Of a stretch of 64,000 bases of DNA, positions 5,782 to 27,960 are shown piece after piece. The DNA comes from Pseudoxanthomonas sp. SE1 (GTDB taxonomy: Bacteria > Pseudomonadota > Gammaproteobacteria > Xanthomonadales > Xanthomonadaceae), in assembly GCF_029542205.1 (NCBI RefSeq), contig NZ_CP113783.1:2409001-2473000 (forward strand). The letters run 5' to 3'. The notes below the pieces were generated by a model that was not told where the DNA came from, ran no database searches, and saw only the letters and a list, made by a program, of their open reading frames with translations. The position numbers and the translations under genes are program-made. Position 1 is the first letter of the stretch; each line of letters begins with the position of its first letter.

Positions 5782-6014
5782 TGATAGCCCATGCACTGCA
5801 TATAAGAAATTCTAGATATAAGAAACTCTAGCCGCATTAATACATCTAATCCCTTCCTGCCCGCTCAGACTGCTGAAGGGGGAAGACGACAAGCCGGGTA
5901 AGTAAATTTACGTCCCACCAACCCTCTCACAATAGGCATCCCTCCCGATCGGCAGCTACGCCACCAAGGGCCCGATCCGTCGGCCTCCATGCCGCACGCA
6001 TCCAGCCCTCCCCC

Positions 6015-6041
6015 TAAAGATGCTGCACCCCACGCCGATAC
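6015..6041 (+). promoter_or_regulatory. FliA promoter of the PilZ gene
   Basis: TAAAGATG, 11 bp, GCCGATAC is a very close match to the FliA consensus. It lies downstream of an in-frame ATG at 5989, which rules that ATG out as the start for transcripts from this promoter. Confidence 0.82.
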
Positions 6042-6081
6042 AGCCTGTGACGCCTTCCCTGCCCAGATGCTTCACGCCCGC

Positions 6082-6861
6082 ATGACCGAGCCCAGCGACG
6101 CCCCTCTGGCCGATCCCGTCAGGTACGACGAAGAAGAAAAGTACCTGGTGCATGGCGAATACGAGATCCGGCAGATCCTGCAGTCGCTGATCGCCAAGCG
6201 CGCGCTCGTCAGTGGTTGCGCGATGCCGCGCAACCACACCTTCCCCACCTCCATCATCGAGGTGCTGGAGGACGAAGACGGCGTGCTGATCGACGGCAGC
6301 GCATCCGAGACCATCAACCGCAGCATCGAGGAAGCGAGCCACGTCACCTGCGTGTCGCGACTCGACCGCATCCACGTGCAGTTCAAGCTCTACGACCTGC
6401 AACGCGTGCAGAAGGACGGCCAGGTGGCGTTCCGTGCCTCGCTGCCGGAAAGCATCCTGCGCCTGCAGCGACGCGAGTTCTACCGCCTGCAGGTGCCGGT
6501 GACCCAGCCCATGGAGTGCGCCGTCGCCGAGCGTCATCCCGATGGCGAGATCACCTACCGCAATTACCGCGTGCTGGACATCAGCGGCGGCGGCATCGCG
6601 CTGGCCGTGCAGGCCGAAGAACCCACGCTTCGCCCCTACAAGGAATTCCCCGGCAGCCTGCTCCACCTGCCCGACAGCGGCCCGCTGTGCGTGCGCCTGA
6701 TGGTCAAGAGCCTGCACCGCCAGCTCAGCCAGAACGGCACCGAAAGCTGGCGCGCCGGCTGCCAGTTCACCGACATGCCGCGCGGCGGCGATGCGCTGAT
6801 CCAGCGCTACATCTTCCGGCTGGAACGCCAGCGCAGTGCCCGCGAACGCGGCGCGGCGTGA
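6082..6861 (+). CDS. YcgR-type c-di-GMP-binding flagellar brake protein
   Basis: This 259-aa cytoplasmic protein has an N-terminal YcgR domain (about 15-120, starting EKYLVHGEYEIRQILQSL) and a C-terminal PilZ domain (about 128-250). The c-di-GMP-binding signature is intact: R131xxxR135 within RREFYR, then D166-x-S168-x-x-G171 in DISGGG. In enteric bacteria YcgR bound to c-di-GMP acts on the flagellar motor and slows swimming; the same role is expected here. Candidate starts are ATG 6067 and ATG 6082; I chose 6082, since both lie downstream of the FliA promoter and neither has a strong Shine-Dalgarno. FliA control puts the brake on the same schedule as the chemoreceptors around it. Confidence 0.88.
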   Translation: MTEPSDAPLADPVRYDEEEKYLVHGEYEIRQILQSLIAKRALVSGCAMPRNHTFPTSIIEVLEDEDGVLIDGSASETINRSIEEASHVTCVSRLDRIHVQFKLYDLQRVQKDGQVAFRASLPESILRLQRREFYRLQVPVTQPMECAVAERHPDGEITYRNYRVLDISGGGIALAVQAEEPTLRPYKEFPGSLLHLPDSGPLCVRLMVKSLHRQLSQNGTESWRAGCQFTDMPRGGDALIQRYIFRLERQRSARERGAA

Positions 6862-12969: not shown

Positions 12970-15582
12970 ATGCTTGGCCGCACGCTGACCTCGCTGACAT
13001 CGGTGCGCGACGCGCTGGCGTCCACGGATCTCCTGCCGGAGAGCCTCTGGCACGTACTGGAGCAGTCCGTCGATGCTGCGTTCGTCGTCGATGGGCGCCA
13101 CCGGGTGGTGCTGTTCAATCCGGCAGCGGAAGCGCTCTGGGGGTGCCCGCGCGAAGACGTGCATGGCATGCCGTTCACCCGCCTGCTGTCCAGTCCCCAG
13201 GCGGACGGCAGCCCCGACGCCACACTGGCGCAGCTGCTCGGCAGCCATCGTGATGCCGTGCTGCACCGGCCCGATGGCAGCGAGGTCGCCTGTTCGGTAT
13301 CCCTTTCCAGGGTGCGCGTGGGCCCGCAGGTCTTCCACACCGCCTTCGTGCGCGACACCAGCGACCAGAAGCGCCAGCTCGAGCGCCTGCGCCAACTGTC
13401 GATCGTGGTGGACAAGAGCGACAACGCCATCTTCGTGAGCGCACCGGACCGCGAGGTGGTCTACGTCAACAGCGGCTTCACCCGCATGCTGGGCTACCGG
13501 CTCGAGGAGCTGCGCGGCATCAAGCCCTCGCAGTTGCTGTCCGGCGCGCACACCGACGCCAACCTGGACGACCGCATCAGCCGCGCGATGCAGGCCGGCG
13601 AAGGCCTGCAGACCGAAGTCCTGCTGTATACCAAGTCGGGGCGCCCGCTGTGGCTGTCGGCCGCGATCAACCCCGTGCACGACGAAGATGGAACGCTGCT
13701 CGGCCTGGTCAGCGTGCTCAGCGACATCACCCAGACCAAGATGCACCAGGTACTGCACAACAAGGTGCTGGATGCGCTGGTGCACGAATGGAGCGTGGGC
13801 GACGTGATGACGCTGATCTGCCGCGAGGTGGAGCACATCGCGCCGGAACTGACGGTCTCCATCATCACGGTGGACAACGAAGGGCTGATGCATGCCCTCG
13901 CGTCGCCCAGCCTGCCGGAAGCCTGGGCACGCAAGATCGACGGCATGGCCATAGGTCCACGCGCCGGCGTGTGCGGCGCCGCCGCGTGGCGGGGCCGCGC
14001 GGTGCTGGTGAAGGACATCGCCAGCGATCCGCTGTGCGCCGGCACCCGCCACCTCACCACGCCGCTCGGGCTGCGCGCGTGCTGGACGCACCCCGTCAAG
14101 TCGAGCAGCGGCCGCGTGCTGGGCACGCTGTCGTTCTACTACCGCGAGAACCGCGGCCCGGACGAACTGCACGAACGCCTGGCCGACACGTGCCTGCACC
14201 TGTGCTCGCTGACGCTGGAGCGCGAGCAGACCAACGAACGCGTGCACCAGCTGGCGTTCTACGACACGCTGACCGGCCTGCCCAACCGCATCATGTTCAG
14301 TGCCAAAGCCGAACAGGCGCTGGCCAACGTCGCCCAGGTGAACGGCACCGCGGCCGTCCTCTTCATCGACCTGGACCGCTTCAAGCGCGTGAACGACGCC
14401 CAGGGACACGCCGCCGGCGATGGCCTGCTGCGCGATGTCGCCGCACGCCTGAGCGAGGAACTCGGCGGCATCAACATCGTCGGCCGCCAGGCCGGCGACG
14501 AATTCGTCGCGGTACTGCCGATGTGCAGCGCCGAACAGGCCGGCAGCGTGGCCGAGCGGATGCTCGGCGCCATCGCGGCGCCGACCACCGCAGGGCTGAT
14601 GACCCTGCATCCCAGCGCCAGCATCGGCGTGGCGATGTTTCCGGACGACGGTCGTGATATCGACCTGCTCGTGCGCCACGCCGACATGGCGATGTACCGC
14701 GCGAAAACCGATGGCGGCGGCAGCTTCCGCTTCTTCAGCCTGGACATGAACCGGCTGGCACAGGAGCGGGTTTCGCTCGAAACCGCCCTGCGCGAGGCCC
14801 TGCGGCTCGACCAGCTGAAACTGCAGTACCAGCCCCAGGTCGGCGGCTGCGACGGCAGACGGTTGTATGGCGTGGAGGCGCTGCTGCGCTGGCACCATGC
14901 GGAGCTCGGCATCATTCCCCCCGCACGCTTCGTGCCGGTGGCCGAAGAGTGCGGGCTGATCGCCGAGCTCAGCCTGTGGGTGCTGCGCCAGGCGTGCGCG
15001 CAGATGGCCGACTGGCGCCGGCGCGGCATCGACATCCCGCGCGTGTCGGTGAACGTCTCGGCGATCAATTTCCGCGACCCGCAGCTGTCGCTGCAGATCT
15101 CCGACCTGCTGGACGAGCATGGCCTGGAGCCGGGCGACCTGACGCTCGAGATCACCGAGAGCGTCATGCTGGACCCGGACCCGGACGTGCTCGAGAACAT
15201 CGAGGCCATCTACGTGCTGGGCGTGCGGCTGTCGCTGGACGACTTCGGCACCGGCTATTCCAGCCTCAGTCACCTGCATCGCCTGCCCATCAGCGAACTC
15301 AAGCTGGACCAGAGTTTCGTGCGCGACATCGACACCAGCGCCATCGCACGCACGCTGACGTCCTCGGTGCTGCGCATCGGCGAAAGCCTGGGCATGAAGG
15401 TGGTCGCCGAGGGCGTGGAAACCGAATCGCAGCACCGCTTCCTGACCGAACAGCGCTTTCCCGTGCTGCAGGGCTACCTGTTCTCGCCACCGCTGCCGCC
15501 CGGGCCGCTGGAACAGTGGCTGGACACGCATGGCTACACGGCTGCCCGCGAAGCCGAGACCGGCGCTGGCGCTACGCCATAG
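12970..15582 (+). CDS. PAS-PAS-GAF-GGDEF-EAL c-di-GMP turnover protein
   Basis: This 870-aa cytoplasmic protein has no membrane helix. In order it carries PAS 1 (about 25-130), PAS 2 (about 140-250, with VNSGFTRMLGYRLEELRG), GAF (about 275-410), GGDEF (about 415-575) and EAL (about 600-855). The GGDEF signature reads AGDEF, with the first glycine replaced, so cyclase activity is possible but uncertain. The EAL side looks intact: EALLRW near 635, EITES, DDFGTGYSS and KLDQSFV. Phosphodiesterase activity is therefore the more likely output, lowering c-di-GMP and opposing the PilZ brake encoded at 6082. It has a FliA promoter of its own, which places it in the motility regulon. Confidence 0.9.
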   Translation: MLGRTLTSLTSVRDALASTDLLPESLWHVLEQSVDAAFVVDGRHRVVLFNPAAEALWGCPREDVHGMPFTRLLSSPQADGSPDATLAQLLGSHRDAVLHRPDGSEVACSVSLSRVRVGPQVFHTAFVRDTSDQKRQLERLRQLSIVVDKSDNAIFVSAPDREVVYVNSGFTRMLGYRLEELRGIKPSQLLSGAHTDANLDDRISRAMQAGEGLQTEVLLYTKSGRPLWLSAAINPVHDEDGTLLGLVSVLSDITQTKMHQVLHNKVLDALVHEWSVGDVMTLICREVEHIAPELTVSIITVDNEGLMHALASPSLPEAWARKIDGMAIGPRAGVCGAAAWRGRAVLVKDIASDPLCAGTRHLTTPLGLRACWTHPVKSSSGRVLGTLSFYYRENRGPDELHERLADTCLHLCSLTLEREQTNERVHQLAFYDTLTGLPNRIMFSAKAEQALANVAQVNGTAAVLFIDLDRFKRVNDAQGHAAGDGLLRDVAARLSEELGGINIVGRQAGDEFVAVLPMCSAEQAGSVAERMLGAIAAPTTAGLMTLHPSASIGVAMFPDDGRDIDLLVRHADMAMYRAKTDGGGSFRFFSLDMNRLAQERVSLETALREALRLDQLKLQYQPQVGGCDGRRLYGVEALLRWHHAELGIIPPARFVPVAEECGLIAELSLWVLRQACAQMADWRRRGIDIPRVSVNVSAINFRDPQLSLQISDLLDEHGLEPGDLTLEITESVMLDPDPDVLENIEAIYVLGVRLSLDDFGTGYSSLSHLHRLPISELKLDQSFVRDIDTSAIARTLTSSVLRIGESLGMKVVAEGVETESQHRFLTEQRFPVLQGYLFSPPLPPGPLEQWLDTHGYTAAREAETGAGATP

Positions 15583-15678
15583 CCGCAACGCCGGGGGGCA
15601 GGCGGTTCGTGGGCGACCCGGAAAGTGTGACCCGCCTCCCAGTCGAAACAACGAACGATCCCGCGTTGCGGCATCGCC

Positions 15679-15705
15679 TCAAGTTTGGCGGCGGCGAGCC
15701 GATCT
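15679..15705 (+). promoter_or_regulatory. FliA promoter of the small secreted protein gene
   Basis: TCAAGTTT, 11 bp, GCCGATCT: a near-perfect FliA site 47 bp upstream of the ATG at 15753. Confidence 0.85.
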
Positions 15706-15752
15706 CTGGCAGTGAGCCGTTACCCCTCTTCTGTCCATCCGGAGTTACTGGA

Positions 15753-16157
15753 ATGAAAATCGCATCCGCCCTGACCCTGTCCATCGCCGTCGTCGGCGCC
15801 GCCCTGCTGATGCCCGCAACGCCGGCCAACAGCCAGTCCCAGGTCGACAACGCGATCCCCGCCGACATGGCGGCGCGCTTCGCCGGCAAGAACGGCACCG
15901 TCTGCGGCAAAGTGGGCAAGGCGCGCTTCGCCGAGAATTCCGAAGGCACCCCGACCTTCCTGTACATGGGCGGCAACTTCCCGCGCCACACGTTCACGGC
16001 ACGCATCCCGGGCGACGCCCGCGCCAAGTTCAAGCCGGCCCCGGAAGAGCTGGAAGGCAAGGACGTGTGCGTGATCGGCGCCATCGAGCGCGACAACTCG
16101 CGCGCCGAGATCGTGGTCAATTCGCCGGCCAACCTGAAGCTCGCAACGATCCGCTGA
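15753..16157 (+). CDS. Small secreted OB-fold-like protein under FliA control
   Basis: The 134-aa product begins with a signal peptide (MKIASALTLSIAVVGAALL, probable cleavage after ANS near residue 27), so it is periplasmic or exported. The mature part has short beta strands with two cysteines (in GTVCGKVGKARF and KDVCVIGAIE), an FLYMGGNFPRHTFTARI stretch and a C-terminal EIVVNSPANLKL. This layout resembles small OB-fold proteins often annotated as nucleic-acid-binding, though nothing here shows that it binds nucleic acid. GGAG at 15741-15744 fixes the start. It lies 91 bp ahead of chemoreceptor 5, and the pair is probably co-transcribed from the FliA site. A periplasmic partner of receptor 5 or of the flagellum is possible but unproven. 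Confidence 0.8.
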   Translation: MKIASALTLSIAVVGAALLMPATPANSQSQVDNAIPADMAARFAGKNGTVCGKVGKARFAENSEGTPTFLYMGGNFPRHTFTARIPGDARAKFKPAPEELEGKDVCVIGAIERDNSRAEIVVNSPANLKLATIR

Positions 16158-16248
16158 TCCGTTGCAACGGCAGGGCGCCATGCCCTGCCCTGTCCTGGTC
16201 GCACCCGAGAGCGGCGCGGCACGCCACCGGTAAAGGAAAACGATTCCC

Positions 16249-18477
16249 ATGCAGCGGATCAAGAACCTCAAACTGACGACGAAGATGATGCTTGCGTTCG
16301 GCGCCGTGCTGGCGCTGATGCTGGTACAGGGCATCGCTGCTTTCGTCGGCCTGAACTCGTTGAACGGCGCCACTACCGAGGTGACCGGCAACGTCCTGCC
16401 CAGCGTCAAGGCGGCCGGCGACCTGCGCGCGTTGCTAGGCGAGCTGCGCACGACCTCCTACCGCCAGCACGTGCGCGCGAGCGATGCGGTCAAGGCGGAA
16501 GCCAAGACCAATGCCGCCAAGCAGGAAAAGCAGATCGACCAGGCGGTGGAGGACTACGCCAGGCTGATCGCCACGCCGAAGGAAAAGGCGGTGTACGCCA
16601 CCTTCGTCAAGGAATGGAAGGCCACCAAGCAGTCCTACGCCGACGTGCAGGAAATGCTCGACCTGGGCCTGCCGGATGACGCCGTGGATACCTTCATCGG
16701 CGGCACGCGCGAGCAGCACAACAAGGCCGCCAATGCCCTGACCTCGCTCATCAACGAGGTCGACCAGCAGGCCAAGGGCGCCAGCGCCAGCGCCGACAGC
16801 ACCTTCGCCGCCTCCAGCACGCTGATGGTCATCATGTTGCTGGTGGGCATCGTGGGTGGCCTGGCCCTGGCCTGGTTCTTCGCCCGCGCCATCGCCGGTG
16901 CCGTCGGCGAAGCCGTGCGCGTGGCCAATGACGTCTCCGCCGGCAAGCTGGATGGCAAGATCGACACCAGCCGCCAGGACGAAGTCGGCCAGCTGCTGTC
17001 CGCCATGCAGCGCATGCAGGTGCAGGTGCAGTCCGTCATCTCCGCCCAGAGCGAAATGGCGGCGCGCCACGATGAAGGCCAGATCAGCTACCGCATGGAC
17101 GACAGTGCGTTCCCGGGCGAATACGGCCGCATGGTGCGCGACACCAACGCCCTGGTGGCCTCGCACCTGCAGGCCATCGGCGACGCGCTGAAGATCATGC
17201 AGCGCTACTCGGTGGGCGACCTGAGCCTGGACATGCCCAAGCTGCCCGGCGAGAAGGCCAACCTGACCGAAACGATGGACGCCACCAAGGCCAACCTGTC
17301 GGCGATCAACGGCGAGATCAAGCGCCTGGCCATGGCCGCTTCCTCTGGCGATTTCAGCCAGCGCGGCGACGTGGACAAGTACCAGTACGACTTCCGCGAC
17401 ATGATCGACGGCCTGAACCAGCTGATGGAAACCACCGACGGCAACCTCGCCGAGGTGTCCGAACTGCTGCAGGCCATCGCGCGTGGCGACCTGACCGCGC
17501 GCATGGAAGGCGACTTCCACGGCGTGTTCGCCAGCATGCGTGACGATGCGGATGCCACCGTGGCCCAGCTGACCGACATCGTCGGCCGCATCCAGGACGC
17601 CTCGACCAGCATCAACACCGCCGCCGGTGAAATCGCCTCCGGCAACAGCGACCTGTCCCGCCGCACCGAACAGCAGGCCGCCAACCTGGAAGAAACCGCC
17701 GCCTCCATGGAGGAACTGACTTCCACCGTGCGCCAGAACGCCGAATCGGCCCGCCAGGCCAACCAGCTGGCGATCGGCGCCGCCGGTGTCGCCTCGCAGG
17801 GCGGTGAAGTGGTCGGCAAGGTCGTCACCACGATGCGCGACATCGAGCAGTCGTCGAAGAAGATCGCCGACATCATCTCGGTCATCGACGGCATCGCCTT
17901 CCAGACCAACATCCTGGCCTTGAATGCCGCGGTGGAAGCCGCCCGCGCCGGTGAACAAGGCCGTGGTTTCGCGGTGGTCGCCTCCGAGGTGCGTACGCTT
18001 GCCCAGCGCAGCGCGAACGCCGCCAAGGAGATCAAGGGCCTGATCGAAACGTCCGTGGACAAGGTGGCCGATGGCTCCAAGCTGGTGAACCAGGCCGGCG
18101 CGACCATGGGTGAGATCGTCGCCTCGGTGCAGCGCGTGACCGACATCATGGCCGAGATCTCGGCGGCCTCGCAGGAGCAGAGCGCCGGCATCGAACAGGT
18201 CAACCAGACCATCACCCAGATGGACGAGACCACCCAGCAGAACGCCGCGCTGGTGGAAGAAGCCTCGGCCGCTGCCCGTTCGATGGAAGAGCAGGCACAG
18301 GCACTGAGCGAATCGGTGTCGGTGTTCAAACTGCATGCCAACGCGGCACCGACCCCCGTGGTCGCCAAGCCGGCCAAGGCCGCATCTGCCGCCCCTGTGA
18401 AGCCCGCGCCGCGCGCCGCCGCCCCTTCGGTGCTGGAGCCCGCGCTGGCCGATGGTGACGACTGGCAGGAATTCTGA
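16249..18477 (+). CDS. Methyl-accepting chemotaxis protein 5 (4HB sensor, WQEF tail)
   Basis: This chemoreceptor has 742 aa. Helix 1 lies near residues 10-32. A periplasmic four-helix-bundle domain (about 33-190, rich in K, E, Q and A and free of cysteine) precedes helix 2 near 194-217, HAMP, HAMP-like repeats and the signalling hairpin. It ends DWQEF. Like receptor 3 it carries the block [11 protein letters not shown] and the GNSDLSRR variant, although its sensor is of the same class as receptor 1. A strong Shine-Dalgarno (AAAGGAAAA) precedes the ATG. No promoter is visible between it and the OB-fold gene, so it probably depends on the FliA site at 15679. cheR, cheD and cheB follow after 107 bp. 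Confidence 0.93.
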
Positions 18478-27842: not shown

Positions 27843-27869
27843 ATATCGGCCGCGACTGATCCGACTTTA
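27843..27869 (-). promoter_or_regulatory. Proximal FliA promoter of flgM
   Basis: Read on the minus strand: TAAAGTCG, 11 bp, GCCGATAT; the -10 box ends 32 bp before the flgM ATG. Confidence 0.85.
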
Positions 27870-27933: not shown

Positions 27934-27960
27934 GTATCGGCCGCCCCCGGAACAACTTGA
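27934..27960 (-). promoter_or_regulatory. Distal FliA promoter of flgM
   Basis: Read on the minus strand: TCAAGTTG, 11 bp, GCCGATAC; located 91 bp upstream of the proximal site and downstream of the flgA stop. Confidence 0.75.

Follow-up and report, generated by a model that had tools for sequence, protein, structure and literature searches.

Background

Indirect chemosensing, as it is known so far, relies on solute-binding proteins that are shared with transporters. One account of such systems describes sensing via periplasmic binding proteins for Tar, Trg, Tap and Tsr, and for CtpL with PstS, the genes concerned being associated with transporters (PMC4926252). The pairs in question are MBP-Tar, GBP/RBP-Trg, DppA-Tap, LsrB-Tsr and PstS-CtpL; partners of the MBP type also feed the transporter, and Trg, Tar, Tap and Tsr possess a four-helix-bundle domain (PMC4926252). 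The malE mRNA is protected by an intercistronic structure that favors an excess of the binding protein, and such structures also follow other binding-protein genes (PMC5927463); in transporter operons of clostridia, low-U stem-loops located after the binding-protein genes are described as setting the excess of these proteins (PMC9045158). Small exported proteins with an OB fold are known from a different context, namely the BOF/YgiW/YdeI/SipA family (PF04076), of which SipA is reported as a periplasmic protein that binds antimicrobial peptides and an outer membrane protein (PMC6370654).

Here we examine a 64-kb window, by which we mean the whole stretch of DNA that was analysed, from a host genome of 4.23 Mb in one contig. 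It contains a gene for a small, probably exported OB-fold protein, OBX, directly followed by a gene for a chemoreceptor, MCP5. As in the MBP-type systems, a soluble and putatively exported protein is paired with a receptor that has a four-helix-bundle domain, and a hairpin comparable to that of malE follows its gene. Unlike the MBP-type partners, OBX is predicted to adopt an OB fold, lacks a transporter gene among its neighbors in 2588-22630, adjoins its receptor and is preceded by a FliA-type promoter. Our searches of the literature found no paper on this gene.

Results and Discussion

The locus and its product

The features to which we refer are the following.

12970-15582, + strand: gene for a PAS-GAF-GGDEF-EAL protein upstream of OBX, regarded as lying outside the unit
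15679-15705, + strand: FliA (sigma-28) type promoter, TCAAGTTT-N11-GCCGATCT, agreeing with the consensus at 13/16 positions
15753-16157, + strand: OBX, predicted exported OB-fold protein of 134 aa, from its reading frame, signal peptide (about residues 1-27), OB domain (about 31-134) and conserved C51 and C106
16169-16189, + strand: intercistronic stem-loop between OBX and MCP5 (stem 16169-16176 with 16182-16189), with no U tract
16249-18477, + strand: MCP5, chemoreceptor with 4HB_MCP_1, HAMP domains and MCPsignal, the conserved partner gene
16249-16863, + strand: MCP5 residues 1-205 (TM1, periplasmic four-helix bundle and TM2), which served as query for the ligand-binding domain (LBD)

The OBX reading frame opens with ATG. 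By rule-of-thumb criteria, a signal peptide consisting of a basic n-region and a hydrophobic stretch is present in 61/64 OBX sequences, suggesting export to the periplasm, and a lipobox occurs in 0/64. The mature domain contains a pair of cysteines spaced by 54 or 55 residues (C51 and C106 in the window) in 63/64 of the sequences read from the loci, the exception being L076, a doubtful paralogue with 28% identity. Five basic residues, R78, R84, R90, R113 and R117, are invariant among 65 sequences. As dN/dS in five comparisons of close orthologues is 0.12-0.24, OBX is a gene under purifying selection. The earlier note, made from the sequence of this window, had described an exported 134-aa protein with two cysteines, and the reading frame, signal peptide and C51/C106 agree with that description.

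The AlphaFold2 model of OBX is an OB fold with the topology of a five-stranded barrel. Profile comparisons with hhalign indicate homology to the OB domains of DUF559 nuclease-like proteins and to a small nucleotide-binding protein of Ruegeria (PF01336-like), with probabilities of 97.8 and 98.1; the Ruegeria protein and OBX have in common the motif T-F-x-x-x-G-G-x-F-P-x-H-x-F. Model and profile homology together substantiate the OB-fold-like character that had been proposed for the protein. These relatives are found in plasmid or nuclease contexts, whereas OBX lies beside a chemoreceptor. A further small OB-type protein, the Klebsiella nucleic acid-binding protein of PDB 3f1z, was recovered by Foldseek (E 5.7e-3, TM 0.46 / 0.52 vs OBX); it is, by its title, an exported lipoprotein, in contrast to the lipobox-free OBX sequences.

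At the level of family profiles, scans of OBX against Pfam and NCBIfam returned nothing at E<=1, and Pfam searches with 20 OBX relatives touched 8 families, each through 3 of these relatives at most (best E 0.0032). PDB sequence searches with OBX gave weak matches, which are probably due to chance. We considered whether OBX is a member of the BOF family, with which it has in common being a small exported OB-fold protein. It has no match to the PF04076 profile, its alignment to E. coli YgiW by hhalign has a probability of 14.9, and it differs in its two invariant cysteines and its chemoreceptor partner; PF04076 itself was absent from 13 genomes (the host's own and those of relatives) and was found in the E. 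coli control. Likewise, we rejected OBX as a solute-binding protein of the Pfam type, of which one published survey uses 45 families (PMC9602780), as it matches no solute-binding-protein profile and has no transporter nearby: the domains identified by Pfam in 11 neighbors within 2588-22630 are MCP, PilZ (YcgR-type), CheW, GGDEF-EAL, CheR, CheD and CheB, with no transporter gene among them.

A conserved FliA-type promoter and association with motility

Scanning the 64 kb with what we take to be the FliA consensus, TAAAGTTT-N11-GCCGATAA, and allowing up to 3 mismatches, we found 4 sites against 0.02 expected, a number reached in 0/100 shuffles. The first base of the site upstream of OBX lies 74 nt from the start codon. 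When the upstream regions of loci L001-L079 were compared, counting identical coding sequences once, a FliA-type site scoring >=12/16 was present in 48/64 distinct regions, in all 48 of them 72-105 nt 5' of the OBX start. Random windows of 300 bases from the same loci reached a score of >=12 in 33/1200 cases, a control that is conservative because the OBX loci may hold other true FliA sites. The 16 regions without a site belong to 13 divergent copies (28-56% identity) and 3 copies of about 70%. A scan of 15500-16400 for sigma-70 promoters and terminators found none. The conserved promoter suggests that OBX belongs to the FliA regulon and is predicted to be transcribed by FliA, in line with the FliA-class promoter recognized in the earlier note. 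Xanthomonas flagellar genes depend on RpoN2/FleQ and FliA according to passages of two studies that make no mention of the OBX gene (PMC5550985, PMC7970052).

Elsewhere in the window, two tandem FliA-type sites (27843-27869 and 27934-27960, - strand) lie just 5' of flgM, whose product is FlgM by Pfam. A further site, 6015-6041, falls inside the longest reading of the ORF at 5989-6861 (+ strand), which codes for a YcgR-type PilZN-PilZ protein, and precedes the PilZN domain at residue 52; as the site lies inside that reading, the true start of this ORF is probably further downstream.

OBX was detected in 102 of 297 Xanthomonadaceae genomes and FliA (TIGR02479) in 154 of the same set; 101 genomes have both, 1 has OBX only, 53 FliA only and 142 neither, all of these genomes being of one bacterial family, so that the counts are not phylogenetically independent. 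The single genome with OBX only, G228, owes its place to a weak match (E 1.3e-4), which tblastn of the region did not reproduce. Within the window's genus, all 13 genomes with OBX have FliA, and the 5 without OBX also lack FliA. Beyond this, a search of 369 genomes of the class found OBX in 4, all from its own family, and one of 151 genomes of the order returned 18 matches, 17 from its own family and one (G705) that is an OB domain at the end of a DUF559-type protein. Plasmid records contained three distant matches, one in Acinetobacter. Compared with named proteins, the OBX sequences of the different loci fall into several types: Xanthomonas (98% identity to X. vasicola and X. hyacinthi), Coralloluteibacterium (100%), Luteimonas (91-92% over 106-108 residues), Stenotrophomonas (80-89%) and Pseudoxanthomonas (up to 100%).

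Pairing with one class of chemoreceptor

In most of the loci examined, a receptor gene follows OBX on the same strand, often in the order CheW-OBX-MCP-CheR-CheD-CheB, with further receptors interposed in some. The PAS-GAF-GGDEF-EAL gene is the upstream neighbor in the window's genus and in one further genus (L047), its place being taken by CheW in most other genera examined. Of the setting originally pictured, between a c-di-GMP gene and a receptor gene, the receptor side holds for most loci, and the c-di-GMP side was seen in these two genera.

The MCP5 LBD (first 205 residues) matches 103/297 family genomes, 101 of them shared with OBX. Within the 154 genomes encoding FliA, 101 have both OBX and the LBD, 0 OBX only, 2 the LBD only and 51 neither. 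Of the two with the LBD only, G069 has a distant match (24% identity), and G175 has a receptor whose start looks damaged and whose contig breaks off about 100 bases further upstream, so that an OBX gene may lie beyond its end. This MCP5-type receptor of G175 (L086 6688-7351, - strand; same genus as G265, see below) lacks about residues 29-55. OBX lies <1.5 kb upstream of an MCP5 LBD on the same strand in 100/102 genomes and at 107/112 places, with a median gap of 93 nt. In G100, the receptor adjacent to OBX falls under the cut-off of the LBD search, yet is present at the locus. Two OBX-like paralogues (G027, G188) lie away from an MCP5 domain. One orphan paralogue, at L068 9225-9599 (+ strand), has no receptor that we could find nearby, and by eye has ahpC-like and oxyR-type genes near it. 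Tandem OBX genes precede the receptor in 8 genomes; at L069, L070, L071, L073 and L075, representing divergent genera, the tandem copies lie directly before it and may form a pair.

We also scored the receptors of these loci against the MCP5 domain; 118 were used, the mis-framed ORF L054_10083 having been left out of 119 and scores being given to receptors not cut by a contig end. All 41/41 labelled as OBX-adjacent scored 39.9-416 bits. Among the 77 labelled non-adjacent, one (L067) proved to be adjacent, and the other 76 scored <=35.0 bits or nothing. Given the small margin at the low end of these scores, an LBD tree was built from 55 sequences, reduced to 50 by identity, with two second copies included, several long branches flagged and L067_8803, which is OBX-adjacent with an over-long start, relabelled from 'oth'. 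In this tree, 38 OBX-adjacent domains form one side of a single branch (support 100/97), a separation equalled in 0/500 label shuffles. The dedication to this receptor, which the earlier note had suggested, is supported by the adjacency in 100/102 genomes and by the single clade of receptor domains. The note had also named, as evidence against its proposal, homologues that mostly lack motility genes in their genomes or lie apart from the che genes; the genomic comparison found the opposite, with 101/102 OBX genomes encoding FliA, as expected of a gene associated with motility.

Conversely, 16 LBD-like places (46-84 bits) lack an adjoining OBX, and hence the MCP5 domain family can work without it; 14 of these are second copies in the Xanthomonas-type genus g7, and the others are in G069 and G100. 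In G111, one of the 14 g7 genomes with such a second match, the additional MCP5-like domain (L089 5328-5927, - strand) belongs to a different chemosensory cluster, which contains homologues of CheB, CheR and CheW but no OBX. Ahead of the signalling tip, the MCP5 of the window's genus has about 44 residues fewer than its counterparts in most other genera, with the signature at 553 instead of about 597.

CheD, which lies 3 kb from OBX, is present in 21/26 of the genomes examined (of 53) that have FliA but not OBX and that may either have lost the pair or never have had it. As CheD stays, the absence of the OBX-MCP5 pair is not an absence of the che cluster. These genomes were viewed in regions around CheD, the regions near fliA (L090-L093) being without a che cluster. 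In G265, a Xanthomonas-type genome, CheW, CheR, CheD and CheB are kept, no MCP5 domain was found and OBX is reduced to a remnant between CheW and CheR (L101 about 6575-6681, - strand), namely its tail, of which about 32 residues align at 53% identity; the best FliA score at the remnant is 10/16. G265 shares its genus with pair-bearing genomes; another member of that genus, G017, has an OBX with 98% identity to the X. vasicola protein. Such a remnant, a joint loss in one genome, is what a protein useless apart from its receptor would be expected to leave.

A conserved hairpin between the two genes

Across the loci, the stop codon of OBX is usually followed, at a distance of 4 to 23 bases, by a GC-rich perfect stem, mostly without a U tract (L060 has one). 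Leaving out L068 and L076 and keeping one OBX per tandem, a perfect stem of >=9 bp is present in 39/57 OBX-MCP gaps vs 189/2000 random windows and 154/2850 shuffled gaps; the figures after CheW and CheB are 7/37 and 6/31. All 92 scored cells pair in the 12 sequences of the window's genus, and compensatory double changes occur in 2/8 hairpin pairs, a level reached in 19/500 shuffles, although this test favors structure because the structure was read from the same 12 sequences. A match of Rfam SorX over the hairpin on the minus strand (18.6 bits vs a cut-off of 46.6) was judged to be due to chance. The hairpin could be an ordinary partial terminator; on the precedent of malE, it might instead favor OBX over the receptor mRNA.

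The periplasmic domain of MCP5

A predicted model of the MCP5 domain (9 sequences; mean pLDDT 72.6) has helices at 2-69, 79-104, 110-139 and 143-214, with helix ends at 69-79 and 139-143. Positions of low entropy near these ends are R67, R76, S78, K82, A85, V133, E135, L141, A145 and D147, and conserved residues outside the distal part are W123, Y103, L38, L167 and A182. With 42 sequences reduced to 33, the membrane-distal part of the LBD is the more conserved (entropy 1.59 vs 2.10), ranking 9 of 148 circular shifts in what is a modest test. This pattern fits a docking surface, but it also fits a direct ligand site like that of Tar, as R67 and R76 recall R64 and R73 of Tar. The likeness of these arginines is one of spacing rather than of alignment, given that a PDB search turned up no protein convincingly related to the MCP5 domain in sequence.

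Functional interpretation

Taken at the level of gene content and sequence, the case that OBX and MCP5 constitute a dedicated unit with a FliA-type promoter is strong. We propose, with a probability of roughly 60%, that OBX serves MCP5 as a dedicated periplasmic partner under the control of FliA, one that binds an extracellular compound, docks on the receptor and alters kinase output. Under this proposal, FliA would transcribe obx and mcp5 together as one late motility unit, and the stem-loop after obx would favor an excess of OBX over the receptor mRNA. The protein would be exported by the Sec pathway and probably stabilized by a disulfide that joins the two invariant cysteines. The cleft of the OB domain would then bind the extracellular compound, and OBX, whether loaded or empty, would dock on the four-helix bundle of MCP5 at its membrane-distal end, thereby changing kinase output and possibly swimming. 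By analogy with the binding-protein systems, presentation of a ligand by OBX appears the most likely mechanism. As to the ligand, the homology to nuclease-linked OB domains and the invariant basic residues allow, though they do not show, that what OBX presents to MCP5 is extracellular DNA, RNA fragments or nucleotides, so that cells might swim along nucleic-acid gradients, a reading that we regard as doubtful.

The linkage evidence would be the same if OBX were a constitutive periplasmic accessory subunit of MCP5, acting as a folding aid, stabilizer or inhibitor of the distal bundle with no ligand of its own, while the receptor binds small ligands directly. The retention of two arginines of helix 1 close to its distal end, R67 and R76, is in keeping with such a direct site, and the invariant residues of OBX could equally form an interface or a ligand site. 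However, a hairpin favoring an excess of OBX is more in line with a shuttle than with a 1:1 subunit, and binding of ligands or nucleic acids is the usual role of OB folds, which leads us to regard an accessory subunit as possible, if rather unlikely.

We consider it improbable that OBX is an envelope-stress or nucleic-acid-binding protein akin to YgiW/SipA, placed in the operon by virtue of being useful when cells are motile and making no contact with the receptor. Exported OB-fold proteins of such a kind do exist, as the description of SipA indicates (PMC6370654), E. coli ygiW adjoins the qseBC sensor genes, and two OBX-like paralogues lie away from MCP5 domains; but a role of this kind leaves unexplained both the absence of OBX together with one receptor domain while the che cluster stays and the single clade formed by the adjacent LBDs, and OBX is by sequence no member of the BOF family. 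That OBX is a passenger without function in sensing, its linkage reflecting vertical inheritance of a tight operon within the one family sampled, is very unlikely in view of the purifying selection, the invariant cysteines, the retention of OBX across differing gene neighborhoods, the tandem copies before the receptor and its decay in the one genome where the receptor is gone.

Conclusions

Across genomes whose nearest named proteins are those of Xanthomonas, Stenotrophomonas, Luteimonas, Coralloluteibacterium and Pseudoxanthomonas, OBX is fixed beside one receptor. It would offer a direct handle on the ligand of MCP5, as OBX could be used in pull-downs or titrated in place of screening the receptor. 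If the proposed partnership holds true, it would mean that chemoreceptors can own private periplasmic adaptors of a fold other than that of the solute-binding proteins.
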